Assembly (NCBI RefSeq): GCF_028743715.1
Contig: NZ_CP117996.1
Span: forward strand, 744,001 to 808,000
Direction of reading: 5' to 3'
Origin: Microbacterium sp. Clip185
GTDB taxonomy: Bacteria; Actinomycetota; Actinomycetes; Actinomycetales; Microbacteriaceae
Length of the DNA: 64,000 nucleotides
In this document: piece by piece, positions 30,597 to 58,870 of the stretch
Layout: each line of letters starts with the position of its first letter
Numbering within the stretch: the first letter of the stretch is position 1
Made by a program: the position numbers and the translations under genes
The notes under the pieces: model-generated
The model's input: the letters and a program-made list of their open reading frames with translations, nothing else
Told to the model about the DNA's origin: nothing
Database searches by the model: none

Positions 30597-30665
30597 TCTC
30601 GGAGATCGGCGCGTTTCTCGGAGGATGCGGCTGTAAACCTCCGAGATTCGCGCGCATCTCCGAGA
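30597..30665. repeat. type B nested palindromic element, copy 1
   Basis: Outer stem TCTCGGAGAT/ATCTCCGAGA (30597-30606 with 30656-30665), then GCGCG/CGCGC, then inner stem TCTCGGAGG/CCTCCGAGA (30616-30624 with 30638-30646). Cores TCGGAG, TCGGAG, CTCCGA, CTCCGA begin at 30599, 30618, 30639 and 30658 (offsets 0/19/40/59). It lies between the convergent ATPase and nuclease-like genes. Confidence 0.88.
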
Positions 30666-30676
30666 TCAGGATGCTG

Positions 30677-31519
30677 TCAACAGGCGAGGTGGAGGCCGGC
30701 GGCGATGGCGCGCGCGATTGTGCGCTCGACGCTCGGCCAGTCGTACACGACCTGCGCATAGTCGAAGCGCAGCACGGTGAACCCGCGCAGGCGCAGTTCG
30801 GCGTCGTGGGCGATGTCCTTGCCCCGCTGCGCGGACGTACGGTGATGGGTGTAGCCGTCGATCTGCACGACCAGGCGCTCGCCGATCAGGATGTCGACGC
30901 GGCGGCCCGCCACGACCGCCTGCTGCGTCATGGGCACGCCCCAAGGACTCAGCCGCACGATGACCTGCGTCTCGAGACCGGAGTCGGAAAGGCCGCGGAC
31001 CTCGCGCGCGAGCGCGACGGCCTCGGGGGAACGCCAGCGCACCCGTCGCAGCGTGTCCAGGGAGATCCCTTCCGTGCGGACCGCCGACTCCCATACGACA
31101 CGCGCGGCCTCGGGGGACAGGCAGCGTGCGATATGGCGCAGCGCGTCCTCGGTCGACTCGAGCAGACTATGCGCAGCCGGCGGTGCGAGCGGAATGCTCC
31201 AGTGGGCGACCGCATCCGCGGGCACGCCGTCGGATGCGGCGTGCGGCCGTAGATGCAGGTGGGGTCGATCGGTGAGCAAGGGCGGCAGCCACCAGCCGCG
31301 ATGCCGCGCGACCGAGACGCACGCCAGTCGTGCTCCCGCCTGCGCCGCCGCCAGCAGGTCCCGCGGTGCGGATGATGTGGCGATCCACGACCTCCGGACG
31401 ATGCGGATGCGGCCGGCGGCCGCCTCGGCGCGGACGGCGCGCACGCCGAATCCGGCCTCGGCGGCGACCGCGCGATGGGCGAGCCCGCCCTGTGCGGCGA
31501 GCCAGGGAGTGAGGGACAT
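30677..31519 (-). CDS. AbiEi-like winged-helix / DUF559-type endonuclease domain protein
   Basis: 280 residues. The N-terminal ~70 residues resemble the winged-helix/AbiEi antitoxin-type module common in actinobacteria (RAVAAEAGFGVRAVRAEAAAG). The last ~100 residues form a PD-(D/E)XK/Vsr-like fold. VDILIGERLVVQIDGYTHH supplies the acidic D...Q-I-D strand pair, and DAELRLRGFTVLRFDYAQV follows. Nuclease activity is plausible but unproven. The frame opens 32 codons earlier into a repeat; MSLTPWLA at 31519 is the better start. Type B elements lie on both sides, and a related gene at 60591-61568 is flanked by type A elements. Confidence 0.75.
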   Translation of the reverse strand: MSLTPWLAAQGGLAHRAVAAEAGFGVRAVRAEAAAGRIRIVRRSWIATSSAPRDLLAAAQAGARLACVSVARHRGWWLPPLLTDRPHLHLRPHAASDGVPADAVAHWSIPLAPPAAHSLLESTEDALRHIARCLSPEAARVVWESAVRTEGISLDTLRRVRWRSPEAVALAREVRGLSDSGLETQVIVRLSPWGVPMTQQAVVAGRRVDILIGERLVVQIDGYTHHRTSAQRGKDIAHDAELRLRGFTVLRFDYAQVVYDWPSVERTIARAIAAGLHLAC

Positions 31520-31616
31520 CCCGCCATCCTGCGTCGGCGTCCGCATCCCTGCTCTCCGGGGAGCGACGTCTGTGGCAGACCCGCCGCGCCGCTCGGGTGG
31601 GGGAGGAGGTGCCAAT

Positions 31617-31689
31617 GTTCTCGGAGATCGGCGCCGAGCTCGGAGAATTCGGACCGAAACCTCCGAGAAGTGCGCGGAACTCCGAGAAC
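31617..31689. repeat. type B nested palindromic element, copy 2
   Basis: Outer stem GTTCTCGGAG/CTCCGAGAAC (31617-31626 with 31680-31689) and inner stem CTCGGAG/CTCCGAG (31639-31645 with 31661-31667). Core starts are 31621, 31640, 31661 and 31680, the same 0/19/40/59 spacing as copy 1. It lies between the 5' end of the nuclease-like gene and the 3' end of the acetyltransferase gene. Confidence 0.88.
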
Positions 31690-31755
31690 CGCGCGACGAG
31701 CAGGCGGCTCAGACGAGCAGAGAGCTCAGGCCGGCGCGCTGCGCGCGCGGCCGCG

Positions 31756-32208
31756 TCAGAGCGCGATGCGGGCGACGACCTCGCCGAACTCGGTTTCGCC
31801 GACGGGTTCGAACCCTACGCGGCGGAAGAACGCCTCAGGGCCGCCCTCGCCCGCCTCATAGATGACGTCGACGTGATCCATGCCGCGCTCGCGGGCCTCG
31901 TTCACGAGGCCTTCGATGGCGAAGCGCCCGATGCCCTGGCCCTGGTCGTCGGCGTCGACGTTGATGCGCCAGAGCACGGAACGGAACCACTCCTGCGTCT
32001 CGTGCGGATCGAAGTTCGCGCTGACGAACCCGACGACATCGTCGCCCGCGAGCACGACGCGCTGCCAGCTGGTGCGAGGGTCGATCACGGTCGCCGCCAC
32101 CCCGTAGCTGACCGGGGCGAGGAACTGTTCCTGCCCGGGTTTGAGTGACATGTTGTTCACGGCGACGATCGTCGCGGCCGACAGCTCTTCGAGGCGCAGT
32201 TCGGTCAT
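31756..32208 (-). CDS. GNAT-family N-acetyltransferase
   Basis: 150-residue acetyltransferase. The acetyl-CoA loop is DADDQGQGIGRFAIEGL (Q/RxxGxG/A), preceded by the strand WFRSVLWRINV and followed by FFRRVGFEPVGETEFGE. It resembles spermidine/streptothricin-type acetyltransferases, but no substrate can be set. Start: TAGCCT (32215-32220, complement) is exactly six bases before the ATG at 32208, so I use that rather than the GTG two codons earlier. Divergent from icd. Confidence 0.85.
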   Translation of the reverse strand: MTELRLEELSAATIVAVNNMSLKPGQEQFLAPVSYGVAATVIDPRTSWQRVVLAGDDVVGFVSANFDPHETQEWFRSVLWRINVDADDQGQGIGRFAIEGLVNEARERGMDHVDVIYEAGEGGPEAFFRRVGFEPVGETEFGEVVARIAL

Positions 32209-32309
32209 GGTCACAGGCTAACGCCTGGCGCCCGCCCGCGGGGAGGGATGCGGGCCGTGTGAACTCCCGCATCCGGATGTGGTCAGATGCGGCCGTGCGG
32301 CGGGGGAGA

Positions 32310-32349
32310 TATCTCGACATCGAGATAACCGGACCGGGTGCGATAGGCT
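32310..32349 (+). promoter_or_regulatory. icd promoter with TATCTCGA-CA-TCGAGATA palindrome
   Basis: A near-perfect palindrome, TATCTCGACATCGAGATA, spans 32310-32327. TAGGCT at 32344-32349 is the -10 box with its -35 position overlapping the right half of the palindrome, so a bound protein should block transcription. The core matches the sucCD palindrome at 10932-10945. Confidence 0.65.
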
Positions 32350-32388
32350 GGCGGCTGACCCTCGACGCCTCTATGGAGAGACAAATCC

Positions 32389-34605
<2,217 letters not shown>

Positions 34606-34611
34606 CATCGC

Positions 34612-34655
34612 ACGCAGAAGGGGCCGGATGCGGATGCATCCGGCCCCTTCTGCGT
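34612..34655. terminator. bidirectional terminator between icd and the L,D-transpeptidase gene
   Basis: A perfect 20-bp stem pairs 34612-34631 (ACGCAGAAGG...) with 34636-34655 around a GGAT loop. It fills the 56-bp gap between two convergent stop codons. The T-rich and A-rich flanks within the stem suit both directions. Confidence 0.9.
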
Positions 34656-34661
34656 TGCGGC

Positions 34662-36107
34662 TCAGTAGTGGACCGAGACCTCGGACCCCTTGGAGAGGAA
34701 CTCGTAGGCCCATGCCGCCTGGTCGATCGGCATGTTGATGCAGCCGTGGCTCATCGGGTTACCGAAGTTGTTGTGCCAGTAGGTGCCGTGGAAGCCGATG
34801 TCCGGGGCGAAGTACGTCACCCAGGGGACGTCCTTGGTGCAGTACGTCGATGTGGGCGTGCAGCCCATGTCCTGCATGCGGACGTGCGCGAAGACGGTGA
34901 AATTGCCCGTCGGCGTTGCGTTCTCGCCGAGCCCGGAGGAGATCGGCCAGCTGTTGACGACCTGGCCGTTCTCGTAGAACGTCGCCTGCTGCGTGCTGAG
35001 GTTCACGTCGGAGTAACGGTGGAGTGAGGTCGTCGCGAACGGTGCCTCGGTCACGGGGAGCTGGTACGCGGCGTCGCCCGCGGCGAGCTGAGCCGCGAAG
35101 TCGTCGGCCACCTTGGAGGTGTCGCCGAGTGTGCGTCCGACCGCACCGGGCGTCAGGTCGCGAAGCACCTCGCCCGCGGCGTTCGTGACGACGGTGGCGT
35201 CCACCGGCGCGCGGTTCACGAGCGGCGCCAGCGTGTCGACGGTCTTTTGGATGGCGTCGGCGTCGGCCGAGAGCGTGAGCTTGCCGTCCTCGGTGCCGAG
35301 CTTCAGCCACGAGGCGGCCAGTGCGCGGTCCACGGGCACGGTGCGTTCGTCGCCGACGTAGAAGCCGATCGTGTCGAGGATGCCGTTCAACCGCGTGACG
35401 GAAGCGTCGGCATCCGTTGTCGTGATGGCCGCGTCCACCGGGATGATGGAGGCGTCGATCGTGGTGCGACCCTCGCCGGAGGAGAACGCCTCGCTGAGAG
35501 CGGTGCGCACCTGATCGAGGTCGATGCCCTCGCCGGCCTCCGCGGGGGTGGACACATAGGACGCGGTCGCGGAGTCGAACGTCACGGTCGCATCGGTGGG
35601 GTCGGTGTAAGCGCCCGGAGCCGCGTCGCGAAGAGCGTCGGTGGCGACGACGGGGTCGAGTGTCACGTCGGCGACGAGCGGCGCGGAGTTCCACTGGGTC
35701 ACGTTCCACAGCGGGTGGGCATCGAATGCCTGCTCTGCGATCGTGCGCGCGTCGATCGACGCTCCCAGGTCGGCGCCGGTCACGGTGACGTCGCCGTCGG
35801 GCGTGTTCAGCACCACGGTCGCGCCGGCGAGGCGGGCCGACAATGCGTCGGCGGCGCCGCCCACCGTCATCCCGCCGATCGGAACGCCGGCGACGGCGGT
35901 CCCGGGCGCGATGAGCACGAGGGATGCCGTGACCGCCGCGACCGCGAGGACGGCGGAGGGGATGCCGATCCAGAGGCCGAGGTGGCGCTTGCGAGGCTTG
36001 GGCTCTTCGGGGGCCCACGCGTAGACGGGCGTCGTGCCGTCGCCGGACCCGGCGTCTTCCGCCGGCGTGTCGTGCTGCGCGTGCGGTCCGGTTGCCAGAT
36101 CCGTCAC
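34662..36107 (-). CDS. L,D-transpeptidase with peptidoglycan-binding domains
   Basis: 481-residue envelope protein that forms 3-3 peptidoglycan cross-links. A ~45-residue cytoplasmic Pro/Lys segment precedes one membrane anchor (~46-70). Repeated peptidoglycan-binding-type modules follow (two copies, ~75-330), then a C-terminal YkuD domain. The catalytic block has [10 protein letters not shown] followed by SHGCINM with the nucleophilic Cys. The GTG at 36107 is preceded by GGGGGTGAG. The frame continues upstream but the extra residues are antisense to the ROK regulator. Stands alone, convergent with icd. Confidence 0.9.
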
Positions 36108-36254
36108 ACTCTCACCCCCGTGCTTCGTGTGCTGTGTCTTCCCAGGGTACGCGAGCAAGTCTGATAAAGGCGTGGTCAGAGTCCGATCTCCGACAACGTT
36201 CCGATCACGGCGTCGTGTAACAGTCGTGTGACGAGCGCGCGGAATGCTTGCATC

Positions 36255-36285
36255 ATGTTTGTTCGTAAGGTGTACTAACAAACAT
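36255..36285 (+). promoter_or_regulatory. palindromic operator of the ROK regulator
   Basis: ATGTTTGTT (36255-36263) and AACAAACAT (36277-36285) form perfect 9-bp arms around a 13-bp spacer. They cover the -10 region (TGTACT, 36271-36276, seven bases before the start) and touch the ATG. Position and symmetry indicate autorepression by the ROK protein. TTTGTT followed by TAAGGT also occurs before the hexosaminidase gene (47122-47138, complement). Confidence 0.65.
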
Positions 36286-37483
36286 GACTGCATCGGAAGT
36301 GCAGCGCGGCGCTTCCCTCTCCGAGCCCGCGCACACCCACATGACCTCTCGCGGAGGCGCCTTCGCTCCCGGCCGCGCACTGCGCGCCGGAGTGAAGGTC
36401 CTGCCCGAGCACGCTCGCGGGCACAACCGGTCGCTCGTGCTGCAGACGCTCTTCCACCGCGGCGCGATGAGTCGCGCCGATCTCTCGCGCGAGACCGGAC
36501 TGACGCGCGTCACGATCTCCGACCTGGTCGCCGAGCTGATCGGCGACGGATTCGTGGTCGAGAAGGGGATGCGCGAGGGCAGCCGCCCCGGCAAGCCCGC
36601 CATGCTCGTCGACGTCGATCGGGCCGGTCACCGCATCATCGGACTGGACCTCTCGGGAAGCGACGTCTTCATCGGCGCGGTCCTGACCCTCGACGGCGAC
36701 ATCGTCTCGCGCGCCGAGACACCGCATCCGGCCGCCGCATCCGATGTGCTCGCCGCCGTCATCTCGCTCGCCCAGCGACTCGTCGCCGAGGCGAAGGCCC
36801 CCGTGCTCGGCGTCGGTGTGGGCACTCCCGGCGTCATCGATGACCGCGGCATCGTGCTCACGGCCCCGAACATGGGGTGGGCCGGTTTCGATCTCGAGGG
36901 CGTGTTGAGCGAGGCGCTCGGGCTCGAGGTGCTCGTCGCGAACGACGCGAACGCCGCCGTGCTGGCGGAGTACACGTTCGGCGGCTCAGGCGACGACGTG
37001 CTGCTGGTCAAGGTCGGCAGCGGTGTCGGATCGGGCCTGCTCGCGGGCGGCCAGCCCATGCGCGGCAGCCGCTTCGCCGCGGGCGAGATCGGTCACGTGA
37101 CCGTCGGCACCGACGGCGGCCCGCTCTGCGCGTGCGGCAAGGTCGGCTGCCTCGAGGCGTGGCTGTCCGTGCCGGCGCTGACCGCCAGAGCGGATGCGGC
37201 CGACCCGGACGAGCGCGACACGGTGCTCCGGGATGCCGGAGAGCGCCTCGGCATTGCGCTCGCCCCCGTCGTCGGCGCCCTCGATCTGTCGGAGATCGTT
37301 CTCTCCGGCCCTCCTGAACTCCTCGGCGGTGTGCTTGCGCAGGCCACCGCCGAGGCCCTCCGCACGCGGACACTCGCCCCTTTCCACGAGGGCGTCCGGG
37401 TGCGGATGACGGAGCAAGGCCAGGACATCGTCCTGCGCGGTGCGGCCGTCATGGTCCTTTCGGCGACGCTCGGCGTCTCCTGA
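36284..37483 (+). CDS. ROK-family transcriptional regulator (NagC/XylR-like)
   Basis: 399 residues. A helix-turn-helix at about residues 50-100 (MSRADLSRETGLTRVTISDLV) precedes a ROK sugar-kinase-like domain. That domain has the GVGVGTPGVID loop, ANDANAAVLAEY and the zinc motif CACGKVGCLE. It is the likely repressor of the following amino-sugar uptake operon, with sugar or sugar-phosphate as inducer. The start overlaps its own operator. The gap of 62 bp to the binding-protein gene holds no second operator, so read-through from this promoter is possible. Confidence 0.88.
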   Translation: MTASEVQRGASLSEPAHTHMTSRGGAFAPGRALRAGVKVLPEHARGHNRSLVLQTLFHRGAMSRADLSRETGLTRVTISDLVAELIGDGFVVEKGMREGSRPGKPAMLVDVDRAGHRIIGLDLSGSDVFIGAVLTLDGDIVSRAETPHPAAASDVLAAVISLAQRLVAEAKAPVLGVGVGTPGVIDDRGIVLTAPNMGWAGFDLEGVLSEALGLEVLVANDANAAVLAEYTFGGSGDDVLLVKVGSGVGSGLLAGGQPMRGSRFAAGEIGHVTVGTDGGPLCACGKVGCLEAWLSVPALTARADAADPDERDTVLRDAGERLGIALAPVVGALDLSEIVLSGPPELLGGVLAQATAEALRTRTLAPFHEGVRVRMTEQGQDIVLRGAAVMVLSATLGVS

Positions 37484-37545
37484 CGGGACCTCCCGTGCGC
37501 GCCGCCGGCGCTCACGGTCTCATCATCGAGAACAGAGGACAGCAC

Positions 37546-38814
37546 ATGAAGAAGTTCCTCCCAGCCGTCGCCCTGATGGGCGCATCGGCGATTGCGCTTG
37601 CCGGATGCGCGGGGACAGGAGGCGGCTCGTCGAGCGGCGGCAGCGCGCAGATCCGTGTCTGGCTCGTCGGCACCGACACCCCTCAGGACGCCCGCGACTA
37701 TCTCGTGAAGACGTTCGAGGATCAGAATCCCGGTTCCACGCTGGTCATCGAGGAGCAGCAGTGGACCGGACTCGTCGACAAGCTCACCACGAGCCTGTCG
37801 TCCAACGACAGCCCCGACGTCGTCGAGATGGGCAACACGCAGGCCCCGGCGTTCACATCGAGCGGCGCGCTGCTGAGCCTGGGCGACATCAAGGACGAGC
37901 TCGGGGGATCGGACCTGCTCCCTGGGTTCGTCGAGGCCGGCAGCTGGGACGGCGACCTTTACGCCGCCCCCTACTACTCGGGCTCCCGTGTCGTGTTCTA
38001 CAACACGGCGCAGTACGCGCAGGCCGGCGTCTCGGTGCCCACGACCCTCGACGAGTACGTGTCGAACGGCGTGACCCTCGCGACGGCGTTGCCCGGTGTC
38101 TCGGGCGTGTACTTCCCCGGCAAGGACTGGTACAACGGGTTGCCCTTCATCTGGGAGAACGGCGGCGAGGTCGCCGTTCAGGACGATGACGGCAGCTGGG
38201 ATGCCCAGTTGTCGAGCCCGGAGTCGATCGCAGGGCTCGAGCAGGTGCAGGAGCTCATGACGAAGGCGTCTCTCGCGCCCAAGGACGGCGACGAGACCGA
38301 GGGATGGGTGCCCTTCCGCACACAGCAGGCCGCGACCTACTCCGCGCCCAGCTGGGCCTATTGGTCGATCGTGGCCGACGAGGACAAGCAGCCGACCGCT
38401 GTCGCCGAGACGACCGGCGAGTTCGCTCTGCCCGGCGCCAAGGGCGGTGCGGCACAGGTGTTCGCCGGCGGCTCCAACGTCGGCATCGCGGCCAAGTCGA
38501 AGAACCCGGAGCTGGCGAAGTCGGCGCTGGAGATCATGCTGAGCGACGAGTACCAGACGATCCTGGCCGAGGCGGGTCTCGTGCCCGCCAAGACGTCGCT
38601 GGGCGACAAGGTCGCCGCCGCCACGCCGGAGCTCGCATCCGTCATCGCGTCGGCTGCAGCCAACGCCAAGCTGACGCCGGCATCGCCGAAGTGGGCGGAT
38701 GTGGAGGCGCAGGGCATCATGCAGGACCTGTTCGTCAACATCGCCGGCGGAGGCGACGTCGCCTCGCTCGCGGCTGCTGCCGACGAGCAGATCGAGTCCA
38801 TCCTCAACGGCTGA
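37546..38814 (+). CDS. sugar ABC transporter substrate-binding lipoprotein
   Basis: Extracellular solute-binding protein of family 1, 422 residues. The signal peptide MKKFLPAVALMGASAIALAGC ends in a lipobox (LAGC), so it is membrane-anchored after lipidation. The body has the usual two-lobe pattern (IRVWLVGTDTP, GLPFIWENGGEV). The frame opens 17 codons upstream, but the ATG at 37546 gives the signal peptide. Neighbouring nag genes suggest GlcNAc or chito-oligosaccharide as ligand. A stable stem-loop follows its stop. Confidence 0.9.
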   Translation: MKKFLPAVALMGASAIALAGCAGTGGGSSSGGSAQIRVWLVGTDTPQDARDYLVKTFEDQNPGSTLVIEEQQWTGLVDKLTTSLSSNDSPDVVEMGNTQAPAFTSSGALLSLGDIKDELGGSDLLPGFVEAGSWDGDLYAAPYYSGSRVVFYNTAQYAQAGVSVPTTLDEYVSNGVTLATALPGVSGVYFPGKDWYNGLPFIWENGGEVAVQDDDGSWDAQLSSPESIAGLEQVQELMTKASLAPKDGDETEGWVPFRTQQAATYSAPSWAYWSIVADEDKQPTAVAETTGEFALPGAKGGAAQVFAGGSNVGIAAKSKNPELAKSALEIMLSDEYQTILAEAGLVPAKTSLGDKVAAATPELASVIASAAANAKLTPASPKWADVEAQGIMQDLFVNIAGGGDVASLAAAADEQIESILNG

Positions 38815-38821
38815 TCCGTCC

Positions 38822-47210: not shown

Positions 47211-47300
47211 TATGCTCGATGCCGTCGCGACTGGCGTTGAGGTGGATGACCACCGGGGAGCGACCGACACGGTATTCGGCCGTACGCCTGGGCCGATACG
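47211..47300 (+). ncRNA. ZTP (pfl) riboswitch upstream of glyA
   Basis: The pfl consensus is clear: CGACTGGCG at 47228-47236, stem GGTGG-ATGA-CCACC (47241-47245 with 47250-47254), then GGGGAGC, a variable linker and CGCCTGGGC (47285-47293). TATGCT at 47211-47216 is the -10 box, so the RNA starts close to the aptamer. An alternative stem GTATTCGGCC/GGCCGATAC (47272-47281 with 47291-47299) enclosing CGCCTGG may be the switching helix. ZTP/ZMP accumulates when 10-formyl-THF is short; binding should raise glyA expression. Confidence 0.92.
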
Positions 47301-49634: not shown

Positions 49635-49653
49635 CCCACCCCACGCGCGGGAC

Positions 49654-50784
49654 TCAGGCGGTCCGCACAGCGAGGAAGTCGCGAGCCACTCGCCGATCGA
49701 TGTCCTCCGGGACGCCGTGCACGCCGTTCTCGGCGAGACCCTGCGCCACGGCCGCGAGGGAGCGCGCCTGCAGAGTGAGGCCGAGATCCATCGCCTCGAT
49801 CGGGTTACCGAGCCCGGCGACGAGATTCACCATCCGGTTGTCGGCGATGACGTGGATCGTCCGACCGTCGGCTGTCGCGTAGCTCGCGTGGTACGCCTCC
49901 GACGCCACGGGTGAGCCGAGGGCTGCGAGCTCCATCTCCCAGGCGTGGTGGCCGACGCCCGCGATGCACACGCCGTCGGGCAGCTGCGCGATTTCGGCGG
50001 CGCCCACCACCCCGGGAGCGCCGGTGGCGAGAAAGAGCAGCTGCGCGTTGGACAGTGCGCGAGGCGTGTCGGCGACGATGAATCCCTCGAGCGACGCCTC
50101 CAGCGCTCGGTAGGGGTCGGTATCGACGACCGTCACGAGCGCGCCGAGCTGGCGCAGCGTCTGGGCGGTGCCCCGGCCGCACGGGCCATAGCCGAGCACG
50201 GTGGCTCTCGCCCCGGGGATCATGAGGTTCGTGGCGTTCATGAAGCCCTGAACGACCGACTGGCCGACCCCGAATCGGTTCTCGACGAGCAGCTTGAGTG
50301 GGCTGTCGTTGATGACGATGACCGGATGGCGCACAGCGTCCGCGCGGCGGCGCAGGAGGATGCCGCCTGTCGTGGTCTCCTCGGTGCCACCGATGAGGCT
50401 CGGGGTGGGGTATCCGTCGAGCACGGCGAGGAAGAGGTCCCCGCCGTTGTCGAGGATGAGGTGGGGGTCGTGTGCAAGCACATCGGCGACGCGGGGAGCT
50501 GCGTCATCGCGCGCCGCGTGTACGGTGACCCCCGCGCGGCGAAGGTCGTCCACCGTGTCGTCGCGCGTCGTCCCGGGGGAGCCGGTGAGGGAGATGTCCG
50601 CCCCGGCGGCGGCGAGCAGCCGGACGAGGGCGGCGGTCTTGGGTTCGACGTGCAGGCACATCGAGATGCGGAGCCCGCGGAACACGGGTGCGAGCTCGTG
50701 GACGGCGGCGCGGGTCAGGGGCATGTGCGTCTCGGCCCAGTCGAGGCCGGGCGCGGGCATGGTGGGGTAGCGAGAAGAAGACAT
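49654..50784 (-). CDS. adenosylhomocysteinase-like protein, divergent and short
   Basis: 376 residues, about 100 shorter than typical bacterial SAH hydrolases. Family blocks are recognisable: HMPLT, GGTEETTTGG, INDSPLKLLVENRFGVGQS and the NAD-binding VLGYGPCGRGTAQTL. The canonical KSKFDN active-site motif reads KLLVEN, so the Asp is replaced by Glu. It may act on SAH, S-inosylhomocysteine or another thioether nucleoside. A 26-codon ORF with its own -10 box lies just upstream on the same strand, then a stem-loop. The frame continues upstream, but MSSSRYPTMPAPGLDWAE is the natural start. Confidence 0.75.
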   Translation of the reverse strand: MSSSRYPTMPAPGLDWAETHMPLTRAAVHELAPVFRGLRISMCLHVEPKTAALVRLLAAAGADISLTGSPGTTRDDTVDDLRRAGVTVHAARDDAAPRVADVLAHDPHLILDNGGDLFLAVLDGYPTPSLIGGTEETTTGGILLRRRADAVRHPVIVINDSPLKLLVENRFGVGQSVVQGFMNATNLMIPGARATVLGYGPCGRGTAQTLRQLGALVTVVDTDPYRALEASLEGFIVADTPRALSNAQLLFLATGAPGVVGAAEIAQLPDGVCIAGVGHHAWEMELAALGSPVASEAYHASYATADGRTIHVIADNRMVNLVAGLGNPIEAMDLGLTLQARSLAAVAQGLAENGVHGVPEDIDRRVARDFLAVRTA

Positions 50785-50814
50785 GGGGGTTCCGATCGAT
50801 CGAGTGAGAAGAGG

Positions 50815-50836
50815 GCGTGCGGCGTCGACCGCACGC
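50815..50836 (-). terminator. stem-loop between the small ORF and the SAHH-like gene
   Basis: GCGTGCGG (50815-50822) pairs with CCGCACGC (50829-50836) around a six-base loop. On the minus strand it begins one base after the stop of the 26-codon ORF and is followed by CCTCTTCTC, 31 bp before the SAHH-like ATG. It could act as an attenuator. Confidence 0.55.
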
Positions 50837-50837
50837 G

Positions 50838-50918
50838 TCACTGATACAGATCGGCTCGGTACGAGTGATCACCGAAGAGCACCGCGCCGCGGGGAGCGCC
50901 GGAGACCGGGATCGTCAT
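50838..50918 (-). CDS. 26-codon leaderless small ORF
   Basis: ATG at 50918, TGA at 50838-50840. The peptide begins MTIPVSGAPRG and ends DHSYRADLYQ. TAGGCT (50925-50930, complement) lies exactly six bases before the ATG, the same leaderless geometry as a dozen full-size genes here, which is the main reason to think it is expressed. It precedes the SAHH-like gene by 53 bp with a stem-loop between. It may be a regulatory leader peptide, a small protein or a modified-peptide precursor. No homologue is recognised. Confidence 0.5.
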   Translation of the reverse strand: MTIPVSGAPRGAVLFGDHSYRADLYQ

Positions 50919-50981
50919 GGCGGCAGCCTAGAGCATCGCCGCGGTAACGTGCCGGTGATCTCGGGCTGAGACGATCGGGCC

Positions 50982-52292
50982 ATGCTCACCCTGCACGGCG
51001 CTCGCCGCATCCTCATCGATCGTCGGACCGAGCGCGACGGCGACCTCGTGCTCGACGACGGCGCAGTATCGTCGTCATCCGACGCGGCCGGCGAGCGGCT
51101 CGACGTGTCGGGCTGCGTCGTGACGCCGGGGCTCATCAATGCGCACCACCACCTCCTGCAGACGGGCTTTCGCACGCTGCCCGCGACCCGCGGCGTGCCG
51201 ATGCGGGACTGGCTACCGGCCATGGCCGCCGCCTACGCGGACGCTGGGATCGACGCGTCCCTCACCGCCGCCACGGCGGCCGCGGGCATCGCCGAGTCGT
51301 TGCTGAGCGGGGTGACGACGGTGGCGGACCACCAGCTGAACTGGCCGGATCCGCGGCGCTCGCCGCATCCCGTCGACGACACGGTCGCGATCGCGCGGTC
51401 GGTGGCGGATGCGGCCGCCGCGCTCGGCGCCAGGCTGGTCTTCGTGCGCGGCTCGGCCCGCGACGCCCCCGATGCGGCGGAAGCGAGCGCGCGTGCCATC
51501 GCCGCTCACTTCCTCGCACCGGATGCGGGCGGGGTGAGCGCCGACGGCATGTTGCAGCTCGCGGTGGGGCCCGCGGGCGTGCACTCGGACGGTGAGGAGA
51601 CTTTTCGGGCACTGGGCGCGGTCGCTCGCGAGTACGGCCTCCGCCGTCGCACGCAGGCGAACGAGCAGGTCGATACCCAGATCGCACTCGAACGGTACGG
51701 TCGGCGACCCTTGGAGCTGCTGGAGGAGTGGGGCTGGCTCGCGCCCGATGTCACGATCGCGCACCTCTGCGATGTGACCGAGGCGGAGATCGAGCGGCTG
51801 GCGGCGGCGGGCGTCACCGCGACCCACGCCCCCGGGTGCGATGTGCAGATGGGGTGGGGCATCGCGCCGGTGGCGCGGATGCGGGATGCCGGCATCCGCG
51901 TGGGCCTCGGAACCTCCGGCGGCGGCTCCAACGACGCCGGACACCTACTGGCCGACGCGCGACTGGCCCTGCAGGTGTCGGCGCTCGTGGGCCCGCAGCT
52001 CGACGCGCGCGACGTGCTCGAGATGGCGACGGCCGAGGCGGCGGTAGGTCTCGGCCGGTCTGAGCTGGGTCACCTGCGGCCGGGAGCGGCCGCGGACGTG
52101 TGCGTCTGGGATGTGGACGCGGTGGCGGATGCGGGTGTCGCGGACCCCGTGGCGGGATTGCTCTGGACGAGTCCCGGGCGCCGGCCTCGGCACGTCATCG
52201 TCGCGGGTCGTGTGGTCGTGCGCGACTACCGCCTCGTGCAGGGCGACGAACGCGAGATCGCGGCACGGCTGCGCGGACGGGTCGGTCGCTGA
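50982..52292 (+). CDS. amidohydrolase, TRZ/ATZ (8-oxoguanine deaminase-like) family, altered metal site
   Basis: 436-residue amidohydrolase. The first metal motif (INAHHHLLQT) and the strand-6 histidine (VTIAHLCDVT) are kept. The strand-5 histidine appears replaced by Gln (RTQANEQVD), and the strand-8 aspartate by Ser (GLGTSGGGSND where the family has GxDGxxSND). It may be inactive as a deaminase, use another metal arrangement or have a different reaction. Divergent from the SAHH-like gene, whose nucleoside-type substrate it may share. Four codons from its end the convergent reductase gene begins. Confidence 0.75.
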   Translation: MLTLHGARRILIDRRTERDGDLVLDDGAVSSSSDAAGERLDVSGCVVTPGLINAHHHLLQTGFRTLPATRGVPMRDWLPAMAAAYADAGIDASLTAATAAAGIAESLLSGVTTVADHQLNWPDPRRSPHPVDDTVAIARSVADAAAALGARLVFVRGSARDAPDAAEASARAIAAHFLAPDAGGVSADGMLQLAVGPAGVHSDGEETFRALGAVAREYGLRRRTQANEQVDTQIALERYGRRPLELLEEWGWLAPDVTIAHLCDVTEAEIERLAAAGVTATHAPGCDVQMGWGIAPVARMRDAGIRVGLGTSGGGSNDAGHLLADARLALQVSALVGPQLDARDVLEMATAEAAVGLGRSELGHLRPGAAADVCVWDVDAVADAGVADPVAGLLWTSPGRRPRHVIVAGRVVVRDYRLVQGDEREIAARLRGRVGR

Positions 52293-52307
52293 ACAGCGCA
52301 CCGGCGG

Positions 52308-53285
52308 TCAGAGATCGAGGACGATCCGTTCGCACGCCGCGCGCGAGACGCAGACCATCATGACGGTCGAGTCGCGCTGCTCGATCGGCGTGAGCACCGA
52401 GTCCCGGTGCTCGATGTCGCCCTCCAGCACCGGCACCTCGCACGTGCCGCAGGTGCCGCGTCGGCAGCTCGAGAGCACGAGCGTGTCGGGTGACTGCTCG
52501 CGGATGGCATCGAGCACGGACTGCTCGGGCGTGACCTGGACGACGTCGCCGCTCATGGCCAACTCGACCTCGAACGGCCCGGGCCAGACCGGCTCCCCGA
52601 ACTCCTTCGCCTCGAATCGCTCCACGTGCAGTGCGCGCTCGTCGACACTCGCATCCAGTGCGTCCAGCATCCGCTTCGGACCGCACGCGAACACGGCCGT
52701 GCGCCCGTCGAGGGATGCCGCGAGCGCGTCGATATCGAGGCGGGCACCCTCGTCGCCGGCGTGGATGCGCACGCGGTCGCCGTACGTCTCGGCGAGTTCC
52801 GCCGCGAACGCCATGCTCTGCCGCGAGCGCCCCGCGTAGTCGAGCTCCCACTCCGCTCCGGCGGCCTCCGCCGCGGCTGCCATCGCCCGGATCGCCGTGA
52901 TACCGATCCCGCCCGCCACGAACCGGTAGCGCGTGCCGGGGGAGACCTCGAACGGGAAGTGATTGCGGGGGCCGCGGACGCGCACACGCGCACCGACCTC
53001 GAGCTCGTCATGCACGCGTATCGATCCGCCGCGACCGCCCGTCTCACGCAGCACGGCGATGCGCCATCGCCCGCGCTCGCCAGGGTCGCCGCACAGGGAG
53101 TACTGGCGTTCCGCGGGGCCGGTGCCGTCGGCATCCGGCAGGATCACGTCGAGGTGGGAACCGGGGGTCCAGGCGGGCAGGTCGCGCCCGTTCGGGGATG
53201 CCAGATCGAAGGCGACGATGTCGTCGGCGAGCGCGGTGCGCTCCACGACGACGAGGTCGCGTTCGACGTCGCTGAAGTAACTCAC
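52308..53285 (-). CDS. oxygenase-type reductase (FMN/NAD/[2Fe-2S]), VanB-like
   Basis: 325 residues in the phthalate dioxygenase reductase order. An FMN-binding barrel has RQYSLCGDPGERG, an NAD domain has FVAGGIGITAIRAM and VFACGPKRML, and a C-terminal plant-type ferredoxin has ligands CRRGTCGTC and a distal Cys in MMVCVSRA. It normally passes electrons from NADH to a Rieske oxygenase such as VanA. No oxygenase gene is near in this window. The GTG start lies eight bases after TAGCGT on the complement. Confidence 0.87.
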   Translation of the reverse strand: MSYFSDVERDLVVVERTALADDIVAFDLASPNGRDLPAWTPGSHLDVILPDADGTGPAERQYSLCGDPGERGRWRIAVLRETGGRGGSIRVHDELEVGARVRVRGPRNHFPFEVSPGTRYRFVAGGIGITAIRAMAAAAEAAGAEWELDYAGRSRQSMAFAAELAETYGDRVRIHAGDEGARLDIDALAASLDGRTAVFACGPKRMLDALDASVDERALHVERFEAKEFGEPVWPGPFEVELAMSGDVVQVTPEQSVLDAIREQSPDTLVLSSCRRGTCGTCEVPVLEGDIEHRDSVLTPIEQRDSTVMMVCVSRAACERIVLDL

Positions 53286-53403
53286 AGCGCGTCACGCTAA
53301 TCGGCCCGTGTGACGAGCAGATGACGACAGGCGCGTTACCGGCGGGAAACGCGCGCCGGATACCGTCGGCGCTGGCGCCGGGCGGCGCCGGAGAAGGAGC
53401 ACC

Positions 53404-54618
53404 ATGGACGACCTGCCGCAGCCCGCGACGATCGATCGGATCGCGGGCGCCACGCTGGCTGACGGGTCTCGCGTCGACGTCACGATCGAGAACGGCCGGG
53501 TCTCCGCGGTGACGCCCGCCGCGCCGGCGCCAGCGGCCGGCACGCTCGATCTCTCCGGATACGTGCTGCTCGCCGCGGCCGCAGAGCCGCACGCGCACCT
53601 CGACAAGGCGCTGAGCTGGGACGCCATCCGCTCGCCCATGGGCGATCTCCGCGCGGCGATCGCGGCCTGGCGCGTCTACGCCGAGACGATGACGGTGGCG
53701 GATGCGGCAGCGCGCGCACGTGCGCAGGTACTGCGGATGCTGCGGCACGGCACGACCGCCATCCGCACGCACGTCGACGTGCTGCTGGGCGATGCGCCCC
53801 TTCGCGGGGTCGAGGCGCTCGTCTCGGTGCGGGAGGAACTGGCCGCACTCGTCGACATCGAGATCGTCGCCCTCGCCGCTCCTGACGTGCCGACCGCGCA
53901 CCTCGAGGCGGCGCTGGATGCGGGCGCCGACGTCATCGGGGGAGCCTCGCATCTCGCCGACGATCCGATCGCCGACCTGCACCGGCTACTCGATGTCGCC
54001 GAGCGGCGGGGTGTTCCGGTCGACCTGCACACGGATGAGGGTCTCGCGGCCGCCGTGACCCTCGACGCCTACGCCCGACGCACCCTCGGATGGCCGCAGA
54101 ACCGCTCCGCGGGGCACTGTGTACGACTGGGCACGCTCGACGAACCCGCGCGCGATGCCGTCATCGCAGAGGTCGTCGCGTCGGGCGTGGGCATCATCGC
54201 CAACCCCATGACGAACCTCTCGTTGCAGGGGTGGGGAGTCGCTGTCGCGACCCCGCGCGGCATCGCGCCGGCCCGCGCGCTGTTGGCCGCGGGCGCGCGG
54301 TTCGCCGCCGGTGCCGACAACGTGCGCGACCCGTTCAATCCGCTCGGCCGCGGTGACGCGCTCGAGACCGCGATGCTCCTCGTCGTCGCCGCGCACCTCA
54401 CCGCCGACGAGGCGTACACCGCGGTGTCCACCGGAGCGAGGGAGGTCATGGGACTGCCCGAAGCAGGGGTCGTCGTCGGTGCCCGCGCCGACCTGCTCGC
54501 CGTGCGGGCGGACTCGCTCGTGCAGGCGATCGCCGAGGCGCCGGCCGACCGGCTCGTGATCCGCGGTGGGCGCATCGTGGCGGCCACCGCGACCGAGGGG
54601 TGGGTCGCCGCCCCCTGA
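53404..54618 (+). CDS. amidohydrolase, cytosine deaminase (CodA)-like
   Basis: 404-residue metal-dependent deaminase/hydrolase. The metal site is intact: EPHAHLDKA, DLHTDE, SAGHC and GADNVRDPFNPLGRGD, the last typical of CodA and N-isopropylammelide hydrolase relatives. Likely substrates are cytosine-like or creatinine/hydantoin-like rings; the neighbouring creatininase-family gene fits ring amide chemistry. The ATG follows GAAGGAG. First gene of a rightward set ending at 57500. Confidence 0.83.
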   Translation: MDDLPQPATIDRIAGATLADGSRVDVTIENGRVSAVTPAAPAPAAGTLDLSGYVLLAAAAEPHAHLDKALSWDAIRSPMGDLRAAIAAWRVYAETMTVADAAARARAQVLRMLRHGTTAIRTHVDVLLGDAPLRGVEALVSVREELAALVDIEIVALAAPDVPTAHLEAALDAGADVIGGASHLADDPIADLHRLLDVAERRGVPVDLHTDEGLAAAVTLDAYARRTLGWPQNRSAGHCVRLGTLDEPARDAVIAEVVASGVGIIANPMTNLSLQGWGVAVATPRGIAPARALLAAGARFAAGADNVRDPFNPLGRGDALETAMLLVVAAHLTADEAYTAVSTGAREVMGLPEAGVVVGARADLLAVRADSLVQAIAEAPADRLVIRGGRIVAATATEGWVAAP

Positions 54619-54754
54619 TCGCAAACCGCGTGTTGCGTGCGCGAAACATGGACGGCGCATGATGATCGCGGGCCACGGCCTCTGCGCGGCGAGTGACTCA
54701 TCACCCGGCTCGTCGCGCTCCTTCGTCGGGAGATGCACGCGAAGGAGGATTCCT

Positions 54755-56077
54755 ATGACCGAACCCGATTACGCCGCCCTCGAGGCAGAGCTGCGCGACC
54801 TGCTGGGCCCGCGCGGCGTCTCCAGCGACATGCGTCAGCGCGAGAAGGCGTCCGTGGACGGCGCGCGGATGTCGCCGATCATCGCCGAGATGCTGCCGTT
54901 GGGCATCGCCGACCTCGTCGCCTTCCCGACGACCGCGCAGGAGATCGCGGACGTCGTCGGCCTCGCCGCGCGTCACGGTGTGGCCATCACACCGCGTGGC
55001 AAGGGAACCGGCAACTATGGGCAGGCGATCCCCATGCCGGGCGGACTCGTGCTCGACACCTCGCGCGCCCGCACGATCGTCGAGGTGGGCGAGGGGTGGA
55101 TCACGGCGGATGCGGGCGCGCCCATGAACGCGCTCGAGGCCGCCGCCCGCGCGGCCGGTCAGCAGCTGTGGATGTATCCCTCGACCGTGCACACCACGAT
55201 CGGCGGATTCCTGGCGGGCGGCTCCGGCGGAACGGGAACGATCGCGCACGGTTCGAACGACATGGGGTTCGTGCTCGCGCTGGACGTCGCGACGCCCGCA
55301 TCCGGCGGCACGCTGCGGCACGTCGAGGGTGATGAGGCGCAGGGGTACGTGCACAACTACGGCACCGCGGGCGTCATCGCCCGAGCCACCGTGCGTCTCG
55401 AACCGCTGCAGGACTGGCGCGGCCTCTACGCCTCGTTCCCCGATTTCTCCGGAGCGCTGTCGGTGCTGCGTACGCTCGGCCGGATGACGCCCTCGCCGCG
55501 ACTCGTGTCGGCTGATACCCCGCACATCACCGCGCAGCTGCCGCCGGACGAGGCGTTCAGCGAGGGGCACAGCTCGCTGCGCATGATCGTCGACGCCCGC
55601 ATCCTCGACGAAGCGGTCGCCGTCATCGAGCGGGCCGGCGGGCGGGTCGAGGATGTGCGCGAGGGTCCGGGCGTCAGCGCCGCCATCTCCGTGCTCAGCT
55701 ACAACCATCCGATCGAGTGGCTGCAGAAGTCCGAGCCGGGCGTGTACTTCCACGTCGAGGTGTCCGGTGACGCGCTGGTGGAGCGTATCGACGAGGTCCA
55801 CGCCGTCTACCCCGGCGGCCAGTTGCACATCGAGGCGGGTCACACCGTTCCGATCGGGATGCTGGCGGGTGTCTACGAGAGCCCGGAGGCCGTCTACGCC
55901 GGCATCGAGCGCCTCGGGCAACTGGGCGTCGGCGTGCACAATCCGCACCAGTGGAACGTCGACTTCCGCCTCGCCGAAACGGTGGAGCTGGCGCGGCGCA
56001 CCGACCCGCAGGGCCTGCTGAACCCGGGCAAGCTCAACCCCGACTACGCCGGTCCGACCAAGGGAGCGATCCGATGA
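54755..56077 (+). CDS. FAD-linked oxidase (PCMH family)
   Basis: 440 residues. FAD-binding features are ITPRGKGTGNYGQAIP, STVHTTIGGFLAGGSGGTG and YGTAGVIARATVRL. The C-terminal half has FHVEVSGD, then HIEAGHTVPIGM, and ends DPQGLLNPGKLNPDYAG. It differs from the GlcD-like enzyme at 42550. An AAGGAGG site at 54743 sets the ATG at 54755; the open frame before it is not coding. It overlaps the creatininase gene by four bases. Substrate unknown. Confidence 0.85.
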   Translation: MTEPDYAALEAELRDLLGPRGVSSDMRQREKASVDGARMSPIIAEMLPLGIADLVAFPTTAQEIADVVGLAARHGVAITPRGKGTGNYGQAIPMPGGLVLDTSRARTIVEVGEGWITADAGAPMNALEAAARAAGQQLWMYPSTVHTTIGGFLAGGSGGTGTIAHGSNDMGFVLALDVATPASGGTLRHVEGDEAQGYVHNYGTAGVIARATVRLEPLQDWRGLYASFPDFSGALSVLRTLGRMTPSPRLVSADTPHITAQLPPDEAFSEGHSSLRMIVDARILDEAVAVIERAGGRVEDVREGPGVSAAISVLSYNHPIEWLQKSEPGVYFHVEVSGDALVERIDEVHAVYPGGQLHIEAGHTVPIGMLAGVYESPEAVYAGIERLGQLGVGVHNPHQWNVDFRLAETVELARRTDPQGLLNPGKLNPDYAGPTKGAIR

Positions 56078-56859
56078 CGGCGGCGACGAGGCGATGGGAC
56101 GACCTCTCGGGGCCCGCACTGGTCTCGGCCACGAGCGACCGGTCGATCGCCGTCGTGCCGATCGGGGCGATCGAGCACCACGGTCCGCACCTCCCGTTGC
56201 GGACCGACACGCTGATCGCAGAGGCGGTCGCGACCGCTGCCGTCGAGCGCGTCGCGGCGCAGGGAGTCGACGCGTGGCTGCTCCCGACGCTCGCCTACGC
56301 CAAGTCTGACGAGCACTACTGGGCGCCGGGGACGCTCTGGATGGAGGGGACGACCCTGTTGCAGCAACTCATCGAGATCGGCCGTGCCATCGCGCAGACC
56401 CCCGTACGCACGGTCGCCTTCGTCAACGGCCACGGAGGCAACGTCATGCTCCTCGGCTGGGTCAACCGGGAGCTCCGGCGCCGATTCGGGCTCCGCTCGT
56501 TCTCGATGGGTTCGGGTGCGGGTGTCGCGGGCGACGGATGCGACGGCCGTCCTGACGAACTCGGGCAGGGCATCCACGCGGGATGGGGCGAGACCTCGGT
56601 GGTCATGCACCTGGCGCCGCACCTGGTGGCGAAGGAGCTGCCGCCGCGCAACTTGCCCGAGCGCATCGCGGCGCTGACCCACATCGGCTTCAACGCCAAG
56701 CCCGTGATGTTCGGTTGGACGAGCGACGACTTCGGTCCCGACGGCGTGATCGGCGACCCCACCGGTGCCAACCCTGAGGACGGCCGTCGGATCTTCGAGG
56801 CCGGTGTCGACTTCGTGGCGGAGGCCCTCACCGAGATCGACGGATTCGAGTTCGCATGA
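56074..56859 (+). CDS. creatininase-family amidohydrolase
   Basis: 261 residues. The metal-binding set of the family is visible: PIGAIEHHGPHLPLRTDT (Glu, His, Asp), FVNGHGGNVMLLG (His) and WGETSVVMHLAP. Members hydrolyse creatinine, formamidopyrimidines or peptides (MftE). The position between an FAD oxidase and a PNPOx-like gene, with four-base overlaps on both sides, argues for one pathway. A catabolic amidase role is more likely than peptide processing, since no radical-SAM partner is present. Confidence 0.87.
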   Translation: MTAATRRWDDLSGPALVSATSDRSIAVVPIGAIEHHGPHLPLRTDTLIAEAVATAAVERVAAQGVDAWLLPTLAYAKSDEHYWAPGTLWMEGTTLLQQLIEIGRAIAQTPVRTVAFVNGHGGNVMLLGWVNRELRRRFGLRSFSMGSGAGVAGDGCDGRPDELGQGIHAGWGETSVVMHLAPHLVAKELPPRNLPERIAALTHIGFNAKPVMFGWTSDDFGPDGVIGDPTGANPEDGRRIFEAGVDFVAEALTEIDGFEFA

Positions 56860-57500
56860 CCGCCCCTCCCGCATCCGACGTCGTCGCCCTCCGGGTGCCG
56901 CGCATAGACGTGGCCACCGATCCGGTGCACGCCGACGAGCCGCCGCGCGATCCGCTCGCGCTCGCGGCGTCGTGGCTGCCCGGCGATGGCGAGGAGCGTG
57001 CGCTGATGACGCTCTCCACGGTCGACGAGGACGGCTTCCCCCGCGCGCGCACCGTCATGCTGACGGAGTTCGACGGGGAGCGTTTCTTCTTCCATACGGA
57101 TGCGGCGAGCCGGAAGGTGCGCGAGCTCAGCCTCAACCCGAGGGTCGCGTTGACCGTGCTGTGGCCCGGCTTCACGCACCAGCTCGTTGTGCAGGGGACG
57201 GCGGCCGTGGCGGACGAGGACGAGATCGCCCGAGCCTACGGCGGCCGTTCCGACTACCTGCGCCAACTCGCCTGGCTCAACACCGCCGAGTACGCCCGCC
57301 AGCCGCGTGCGCGCCGGGAGCGGCAGTGGGCCGCGTTCGCGGCGGCGAACCCGCATCCGGCGCAGCCCGACGGCTGGATCGGTTACGCGGTGCGCCCGCG
57401 GCGGATGCTGTTCTGGACGTCGCATCCCGCCGCCGCCAGTCGCCGCCTCGAGTATGTGCGCGAGGAGGGCGGCTGGATCTGTCGGCACCTGCCGGGCTGA
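56856..57500 (+). CDS. pyridoxamine 5'-phosphate oxidase-like FMN protein
   Basis: 214 residues with the PNPOx split barrel (FPRARTVMLTEFDGERFFFHT) and C-terminal dimerisation segment (WIGYAVRPRRMLFW, RRLEYVREEGGW). It is close to PdxH in plan, but several PLP-contact residues are not clearly conserved. The operon context suggests an FMN-dependent step in the same pathway as the creatininase-family enzyme. Overlaps it by four bases. A type B element follows. Confidence 0.8.
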   Translation: MTAPPASDVVALRVPRIDVATDPVHADEPPRDPLALAASWLPGDGEERALMTLSTVDEDGFPRARTVMLTEFDGERFFFHTDAASRKVRELSLNPRVALTVLWPGFTHQLVVQGTAAVADEDEIARAYGGRSDYLRQLAWLNTAEYARQPRARRERQWAAFAAANPHPAQPDGWIGYAVRPRRMLFWTSHPAAASRRLEYVREEGGWICRHLPG

Positions 57501-57533
57501 GTCAGCCGGTTCGCGCCGGTCGGGCCGGTCGGG

Positions 57534-57606
57534 CCGGTCGGAGAATGTGCTCAATCTCGGAGGATTCGCGCCGTATCCTCCGAGATTCGCGCGAATCTCC
57601 GACCGG
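57534..57606. repeat. type B nested palindromic element, copy 3
   Basis: Outer stem CCGGTCGGAGA/TCTCCGACCGG (57534-57544 with 57596-57606) and inner perfect 13-bp stem AATCTCGGAGGAT (57553-57565) with 57575-57587. Core starts are 57538, 57557, 57578 and 57597 (0/19/40/59). It lies between convergent genes. A GGGCCGGTC run precedes it. Confidence 0.9.
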
Positions 57607-57625
57607 GGGAGAATGCCCAGGTCGA

Positions 57626-58300
57626 TCAGACGCCCGCCCCGGCGCCCGCGCCCGCCCCTGCTCCGGCGCCCACGGGCCCGCGGTGCCGGATGCGGCGTCC
57701 CGCATCCCTCGCGCCCAGGCGCGCCGTCTCGGCGATCCACGTCCGCCGGGTCTCGTCGCTGCGGTGGCGCACCTGGTCGAAGCGGGTCACCCCGATCGTG
57801 CGCACGCCGCAATAGCCGAGCACCGCGTTTCGCAGACTCGTCTCCGCGGCGTGCCGGTACACGATCGCGTTCCACACGCGCGGCGAGTCCATCGTCATGA
57901 CGATGCGGGCGGTTCGTCCGGTCAGCAGCTTGTCCCACAGCGGACCCGTCGGGCGGTAACGGAAGGCGAACCCCGACAGGAACACGCGGTCGATGAAGAC
58001 CTTGAGGGCGCCGGGGTACGTACCCCACCACTGCGGGAAGAAGAACACGAGATGCTCGGCCCACGCGATGTCCTCGATCGCTCGCGCCGCGACCGCATCC
58101 AGCGGTGCGTCGTCGGACGTGCGGGGCATCCGCACCTGGCCCGGCGTGCGCGGATGCGCGGGAGCCTCTTCGACCGCGAGGTCGATCACGCGGACCTCCG
58201 CCCCCGCGGCACGGGCCGCATCCGCGTACGAGGCTGCGAGGGCGTGGTTGAGGGTGTCGGGCAGCGGGGTGCCGACGATGACGACGATCCTGGTGCTCAC
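57626..58300 (-). CDS. flavodoxin-fold NAD(P)H:quinone oxidoreductase
   Basis: 224 residues of the KefF/MdaB type. It has VVIVGTPLPDTLNHALA (FMN phosphate loop), LVFFFPQWWGTYPGALKVFIDRVFL and a C-terminal helix. The last ~14 residues are a repetitive Gly-Ala tail (from GPVGAGAG onward). Probably a two-electron quinone or electrophile reductase. It overlaps the MarR gene by four bases (GTGA), so it is a MarR target in one operon. Flanked by type B copies 3 and 4. Confidence 0.85.
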   Translation of the reverse strand: MSTRIVVIVGTPLPDTLNHALAASYADAARAAGAEVRVIDLAVEEAPAHPRTPGQVRMPRTSDDAPLDAVAARAIEDIAWAEHLVFFFPQWWGTYPGALKVFIDRVFLSGFAFRYRPTGPLWDKLLTGRTARIVMTMDSPRVWNAIVYRHAAETSLRNAVLGYCGVRTIGVTRFDQVRHRSDETRRTWIAETARLGARDAGRRIRHRGPVGAGAGAGAGAGAGV

Positions 58301-58734
58301 GGTGTCTCCTTCTCTCGGACGAGCTCCGTCAGCACCTCCAGCTGGCGGGCGAGCACAGCGCGATCGACTCCGGTGTCGATCAGGCGCTGATCATCGAAGA
58401 GGTCCATGAACTCGGCGTCGAGCTCGCTGCCCGCGCGCTCGACGAGGCTCGCGCCCGCATCCGTCAGCCCGACGAGGATGCGTCGCCCCGGACCGTTCGA
58501 GGTACGCACCCACCCGGCCTCGGCCAGATGCGGCATCCGCTTGCTGACGGCGGCCTTCGTGACCATGAGGCACCGCGCCAGGGAGGTCAGATCGAGCGGC
58601 TGCTGATCGGAGATCGTGGCGAGGTAGATGAAGTCGCCGATCGAGATTCCGTAGCCGCTGCGCAGACGTGCATCCGCGAACGCGTCGACGGTCGCGACGA
58701 GCTCGTGCAGGGTGAAGGAGATCCGGTCGGCCAC
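58297..58734 (-). CDS. MarR-family transcriptional regulator
   Basis: 145 residues with the winged helix-turn-helix (LTSLARCLMVTKAAVSKRMPHLAEAGWV) and wing (GRRILVGLTDAGASLV). It starts at a GTG and is co-transcribed with the quinone reductase gene. Two GTCAACC-type palindromes start eight bases upstream, so autorepression relieved by an electrophile or phenolic ligand is likely. Confidence 0.87.
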   Translation of the reverse strand: MADRISFTLHELVATVDAFADARLRSGYGISIGDFIYLATISDQQPLDLTSLARCLMVTKAAVSKRMPHLAEAGWVRTSNGPGRRILVGLTDAGASLVERAGSELDAEFMDLFDDQRLIDTGVDRAVLARQLEVLTELVREKETP

Positions 58735-58741
58735 AAGTCAA

Positions 58742-58778
58742 GTCAACCAGTTGACACCACGCGAGTCAACCGGTTGAC
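58742..58778. promoter_or_regulatory. tandem MarR operators
   Basis: GTCAACCAGTTGAC (58742-58755) and GTCAACCGGTTGAC (58765-58778) are palindromes of 14 bp, the second perfect, with centres 23 bp apart. They cover the promoter of the MarR/quinone reductase operon directly before its GTG start. Confidence 0.8.
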
Positions 58779-58796
58779 ACGGTTTGTCTGTGCGCG

Positions 58797-58870
58797 GCCG
58801 TCGGAGAATATGCGTCCCGTCGGAGCATGCGCGCCAGCGCCTCCGACATCCGCGCGAGACTCCGACCGGC
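58797..58870. repeat. type B nested palindromic element, copy 4
   Basis: Cores TCGGAG, TCGGAG, CTCCGA and CTCCGA begin at 58801, 58820, 58841 and 58860, again 0/19/40/59. Inner stem GTCGGAG/CTCCGAC (58819-58825 with 58841-58847); the outer stem has one bulge. Unlike the others it lies between two divergent genes, the MarR operon and the aldehyde dehydrogenase, where no gene end needs a terminator. Confidence 0.85.

Follow-up and report, generated by a model that had tools for sequence, protein, structure and literature searches.

Bacterial genomes commonly carry short palindromes, and for many of these the driving enzyme is unknown. In the case of repetitive extragenic palindromes (REPs) and the REP-associated tyrosine transposases (RAYTs), the view of the enzyme as mobiliser was drawn, in the portion of the account at hand, from flanking repeats, co-evolution, gene-linked copy number and fast change of the gene (PMC2817692). 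The antitoxins AbiEi and Rv2827c are described, in the available sections of their account, as binding inverted repeats with one monomer per repeat, four repeats in the case of Rv2827c (PMC7319586), and a survey of the HEPN superfamily names MTES_1575, in the part at hand, as a novel Vsr-type domain (PMC3710099). Here we analyze a window of 64,000 nucleotides from Microbacterium sp. Clip185 (contig NZ_CP117996.1, positions 744,001 to 808,000 of the forward strand; the window is this whole stretch), in which two copies of a four-core palindrome, type B, bracket a gene that joins an AbiEi-like fold to a Vsr-like nuclease fold. These palindromes probably serve a small mobile system built on a nuclease, both as its recognition site and as its dispersed unit, which is non-autonomous. 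Seen directly are the pairing of gene and palindromes, their matching letters, the fixed pitch (the distance between the two core starts of an arm), the conservation of the cores, and single copies that some relatives have and others lack. The type B copies and the partner gene are as follows.

30599..30663, no strand assigned: type B four-core palindrome, 3' side of the nuclease gene, 13 bp past its stop; cores at 0/19/40/59
30677..31519, minus strand: AbiEi-like + DUF559/MTES_1575 (Vsr-like) nuclease gene, 280 aa (Pfam, AlphaFold model, PDB fold matches)
31621..31685, no strand assigned: type B four-core palindrome, 5' side of the nuclease gene; cores at 0/19/40/59
57538..57602, no strand assigned: type B four-core palindrome, dispersed copy with convergent neighbor genes; cores at 0/19/40/59
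58801..58865, no strand assigned: type B four-core palindrome, dispersed copy with divergent neighbor genes; cores at 0/19/40/59

An earlier sequence-only reading had claimed that the cores TCGGAG, TCGGAG, CTCCGA and CTCCGA start at offsets 0, 19, 40 and 59 without exception. This is borne out in all four window copies; the start positions it gave were 2-4 bp too low, the true core starts being 30599, 31621, 57538 and 58801, and it missed that two of the copies bracket a partner gene. Each element spans 65 bp, with spacers of 13, 15 and 13 bp. When the window was shuffled three times, four-core matches with any core at 22 or more of the 24 core bases averaged 0.67 per shuffle, and the four type B copies score 24. 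In the source genome (3.3 Mb), a search allowing up to three mismatches found 12 copies, 11 with none in the 24 core bases and one with a single mismatch, no copies with two or three, and 0 matches to the pattern read backward. At up to two mismatches, at least one copy occurs in 38 of 119 genomes of the genus, again with 0 for the backward pattern. The spacing also held when it was left free in 14 genomes (outer spacers 6-20, central 8-22, three exact cores). The outer spacer was 13 in every row except five (three from the source genome, one from G020 and one from G043), which resemble tandem or coding sequence, and the central spacer was 15 except for one element with 14 and three with 16. 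The idea that all four sites lie on one face of the helix is inexact, because 19 bp amounts to about 1.8 helical turns and sister clades have a pitch of 18.

The cores change far less than the DNA between them. In ten orthologous copies from the close relatives G009 and G054, located by cores at up to two mismatches, so that lost cores are missed, the cores had changed at 2 of 240 sites and the spacers at 49 of 410 (Fisher p 1.3e-8). The spacers show an order of their own by position, A+T-rich, then G+C-rich, then A+T-rich, and in 63% of 99 TCGGAG-type elements (11% when shuffled) and 28% of 53 TCGCAG-type elements (4% when shuffled) all four cores are preceded by one and the same base. Counted position by position over the 99 TCGGAG-type copies, the middle of the outer spacers is paired near chance, unlike the single window copies, which fold with pairs there. 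Core conservation, spacing and spacer pattern point to recognition of both sequence and spacing, with hairpin folding possible. Arrays of copies spaced about 120-180 bp apart also occur.

The sequence-only reading had allowed for termination in addition, and single strands of the four window copies do fold well (z -2.4 to -6.2). By the simple gene calls made for this analysis, many of the 12 genomic copies lie past gene ends and several lie between convergent genes, including window copies 1 and 3. On this evidence the elements could be strong intrinsic terminators, alike by chance or founder effect. Such terminators would leave unexplained the fixed pitch of direct repeats and the copies between divergent genes (window copy 4 and one of the remaining eight) and within a helicase gene (L029); window copy 2 lies between two minus-strand genes. 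No T tract was found beside the hairpin, the longest T-run being 2 within 25 nt on the 24 sides of the 12 copies, and terminator calling in 30500-31800, a stretch that covers window elements 1 and 2, returned none. Termination was therefore rejected, and we regard it as extremely improbable. The copy in the helicase gene is in frame, in a linker that varies from 13 to 62 residues among species; among 28 other helicase loci with a readable linker, none scored 21 or more for a four-core element (L065 was unreadable by the motif used). In the helicase gene of G029 (L080), tandem repeats of TGSGTQGT type occupy the linker that holds the palindrome in the source genome.

The bracketed gene encodes a product whose AlphaFold model has a pLDDT of 93.9. 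PDB structure matches to this predicted model assign residues 1-178 to an AbiEi-like DNA-binding fold and residues 181-276 to a Vsr/I-Bth0305I-like nuclease fold. Alternative starts are possible at 31546 or, with TTG, at 31615, and the 5' palindrome lies 74-101 bp ahead of the gene start. All 65 aligned members match both DUF559 and MTES_1575 in Pfam, and no transposase family is among the ten families listed for them. Asp209, Asp221, Asp235 and Asp239 do not vary in any of 65 homologues. NCBIfam gave weak matches only. Viral contigs held no relative of the protein, and partial relatives numbered two in plasmids and one in phages. The gene changes faster than its neighbors: between the source genome and G084 it is 55% identical, against 78% for the adjacent GNAT gene, and between G084 and G108 it is 61% identical, against 87% for the adjacent transporter. 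A protein-bound or recombination-type site, as the sequence-only reading suggested, fits what is now seen, namely conserved cores, fixed pitch and a matched gene family with DNA-binding and homing-endonuclease-like folds.

The pairing of gene and palindrome recurs across the genus. We scanned gene flanks with no letters assumed, looking for an arbitrary core that recurs at a fixed pitch and is followed by its inverted copies, at a threshold of 22 of 24. Among 68 Microbacterium homologues, elements stood on both sides in 42 and on one side in 17. No control gene of 47 was bracketed on both sides, and five had an element on one. Counted by flank, 101 of 136 homologue flanks reached 22, as compared with 5 of 94 control flanks, and at 23 the counts were 69 of 136 and 1 of 94; shuffled flanks reached 22 in 0.3% of 2040 cases, which real control flanks exceed. 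When pitches of 15 to 22 were scanned, flanks at 22 or more numbered 0, 0, 1, 31, 70, 2, 0 and 1 of 136, so that only 18 and 19 stand out. In a set of 80 named loci, which overlaps with the 68, 47 had elements on both sides, 27 on one and six on none. Beyond the genus, the best loci of G385 and G343, from another genus of the same family, are bracketed on both sides, and loci from Okibacterium, Mycetocola and Cryobacterium reach 22 on one side each. In other families none of 21 usable loci (26 fetched, five incomplete) reached 22, a weak test, because for partial matches the scanned stretch is partly intragenic. Flanking of the gene by two palindrome copies is thus frequent, not universal.

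Some loci with the gene between two elements show features of their own. At L395, in G034, the flanking elements (1870-1936 and 2925-2991, core GCACGA) match each other at every one of 67 bp, which suggests that copying or conversion was recent. At L126 and L205, in G093, a shortened DUF559 gene of 156 aa lies between two elements about 470 bp apart and is likely a decaying unit.

The letters of the palindrome follow the gene. Core letters differ from one gene to another (TCGGAG, TCGCAG, CCGGAG, GCGGC, AAGGAC, CATGAC, GAGGAC, TCAGGA and others), and within a gene the left and right cores resemble each other more than they resemble the cores of other genes (42 genes; agreement this high in 0 of 5000 permutations). 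Core similarity tracks protein identity (Mantel r 0.51; 0/2000; 58 genes), and pitch, 18 or 19, can be fitted to the protein tree with four changes, where shuffles need 15.4 (none of 500 as few). Dispersed copies with matching letters accompany the resident gene. With the gene's own flanking copies included in the count, at least three TCGCAG copies occur in 7 of 7 genomes whose gene has TCGCA flanks and in 10 of 112 others, and at least three TCGGAG copies in 8 of 8 genomes with the matching gene and in 10 of 111 others. The CATGAC element has seven copies in the one genome for which it was predicted and single copies in 3 of 118 others. The highest count is 24 per genome.

A second gene of the same build lies in the same window, bracketed by distinct palindromes of its own, type A. 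Its product gave one weak match in a sequence search against the PDB and AbiEi-like/Vsr-like matches in a fold search. A fixed scan gave three type A copies in the window; a free-gap pattern with unsuitable gaps gave none.

13628..13691, no strand assigned: type A four-core palindrome (core GAGCA/TGCTC, pitch 19, shorter center), dispersed copy
60516..60579, no strand assigned: type A four-core palindrome, 3' side of the second AbiEi-nuclease gene
60591..61568, minus strand: second AbiEi-like + Vsr-like nuclease gene, 325 aa (fold search)
61717..61780, no strand assigned: type A four-core palindrome, 5' side of the second AbiEi-nuclease gene

Relatives differ in which single copies they carry. 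At site S4, a gene junction, an element is present in G054, whereas the G052 sequence runs on without interruption. The difference is 77 bp, the 65-bp element plus 6 bp on each side, placed inside a small palindrome that is intact in G052. At one site the element is absent from G052 and G054, and G020 has two TCGGAG-type copies and G009 one TCGCAG-type copy. This presence and absence would also be expected of repeats resembling miniature inverted-repeat transposable elements, mobilised by an unrelated transposase, with the nuclease gene a passenger between two copies. We consider this highly improbable: core letters and pitch track the nuclease family across the genus, and the second gene, built alike, is paired with another palindrome.

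The protein could instead be an AbiEi-type repressor and the elements its operators, the flanking copies serving autoregulation and the dispersed ones a regulon, with the nuclease part acting elsewhere. The AbiEi-like fold, the conserved cores and the position of the 5' copy ahead of the gene start speak for this, as does the binding by AbiEi and Rv2827c of inverted repeats in their own promoters, four for Rv2827c, in the sections of the source at hand (PMC7319586). Operators would sit less well with the regular occurrence of a 3'-side copy as well, with the several copies between convergent genes and the intragenic one, or with a copy presence that varies among relatives, and on this evidence a pure repressor is unlikely. 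A further possibility is that a nuclease serving defence or its own retention uses the elements as anchors or self-marks, such that cells losing copies are harmed. The nuclease-like fold with its four invariant Asp residues and the conservation of the cores would agree with such a role, but elements are kept in genomes without a matching gene among the loci examined and PADLOC returned only weak matches, for four members; we hold this to be quite improbable.

The reading we prefer, a recognition site that is also the dispersed unit of a nuclease-based mobile system, suggests a simple mechanism. Since AbiEi and Rv2827c place one monomer on each repeat, four cores suggest four bound monomers, which would sit two per arm at fixed pitch and could bring their nuclease domains close together. 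Breaks made by the nuclease might then be repaired from an existing copy, yielding new palindrome copies, and the 5' copy may additionally autoregulate the nuclease gene.

Several observations weigh against this reading. Binding, cleavage and movement are inferred; core conservation without movement would suit a regulatory site too, and the contrast between cores and spacers is somewhat inflated because the copies were found through intact cores. Only S4 among four presence/absence sites is clean to the base, S1 and S3 differing around the junction and S2 being uninterpretable, and no target duplication is visible at the S4 junction between G054 and G052. Synteny is frequent at the gene loci, which means that the gene unit itself moves rarely. 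Nine of the 68 homologues lack an element at the threshold. Of twelve further homologues, L393 and L395 are bracketed and ten have no element at 22 or more on either side; the unbracketed L394 and L396 score above the bracketed L395 against the family, so the pairing is not universal even among homologues no more distant than L395, which slightly lowered our confidence in the preferred reading. Finally, G009, G064, G065, G069 and others carry 8-14 TCGCAG copies, and G046, G049, G099 and G112 carry 3-7 TCGGAG copies, with no matching gene among the loci examined, where for several such genomes none or only some of the genes were covered.

Other features of the window can be given briefly. Type B copies 3 and 4 (57538-58865) bracket a MarR regulator and flavodoxin-like reductase pair at 57626-58734. 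Two AGTCAAC-GTTGACA palindromes, read by eye at 58740-58780 just upstream of the MarR gene, look like putative operators of that gene itself. A ZMP/ZTP riboswitch aptamer lies at 47217-47300 (Rfam RF01750, 62.9 bits); it was the only match to Rfam at gathering scores over 29000-60000, and an RNA family was set aside as a reading of the palindromes. Integron attC sites, with four boxes and bracketed genes, were also considered and not adopted, as the boxes differ; no integrase search was made.

Residues 1-178 share the fold of the AbiEi/Rv2827c antitoxins, and we propose a further likeness in the several inverted repeats bound there by one monomer each, as the available sections describe (PMC7319586); here, in contrast, a nuclease-like domain follows the AbiEi-like part, the sites are dispersed, and the scanned window neighbors of the gene are GNAT and P-type ATPase genes, with no AbiEii toxin in those two. 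The catalytic fold is Vsr-like, as in the homing endonuclease I-Bth0305I, but no intron or intein is seen, the DNA-binding part is AbiEi-like, and the dispersed unit is a 65-bp palindrome. The CGTC-tagged REPs and the Rickettsia palindromic elements are likewise short palindromes, mostly intergenic and some intragenic, and differ in being said, in the portion of the source at hand, to have no dedicated transposase (PMC3733652). No DUF559 gene was found on two S. meliloti megaplasmids, the sole replicons examined for a link to CGTC repeats, and searches of open-access PMC, judged by titles and the starts of abstracts, turned up no paper linking DUF559 or AbiEi-nuclease genes to palindromic repeats. 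DUF559, a large family of unknown function, here gains a testable partner, a predicted DNA site that flanks many of its genes, and the natural variation in core letters and pitch is a ready data set on recognition.

The closest comparison is with REP/RAYT systems (REPtrons), where, in the part of the account at hand, the gene is bracketed by its own palindromes, enzyme and repeat co-evolve, gene presence goes with copy number, and the gene diverges faster than its neighbors, as the type B nuclease gene does (PMC2817692). The enzyme there is an HUH tyrosine transposase, whereas the palindrome-paired nuclease has AbiEi-like and Vsr-like folds; the repeats there have a GTAG (or CGTC) head, which is absent here, where cores such as TCGGAG, TCGCAG and CATGAC stand at both element ends and four cores are set at a pitch of 18-19; and REPs usually exceed 100 per genome, against at most 24 elements here. 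Because enzyme and repeat head differ, the palindrome/nuclease system is not a REP/RAYT member, though it would work alike. On balance, and by a modest measure, we favor the broader view that AbiEi-type domains fused to Vsr/homing-type nucleases form an unrecognised, Microbacteriaceae-wide class of mobile repeats, spreading and maintaining their own four-core palindromes, each gene clade with its own core letters and pitch. If so, the class would be a REP/RAYT counterpart driven by a restriction-fold enzyme, could show how a homing-type nuclease spreads a 65-bp repeat, and would offer a model for the missing enzyme of orphan palindromic repeats elsewhere. Set beside these known systems, the palindrome/nuclease pairing looks like a small mobile DNA system of a kind not described before.

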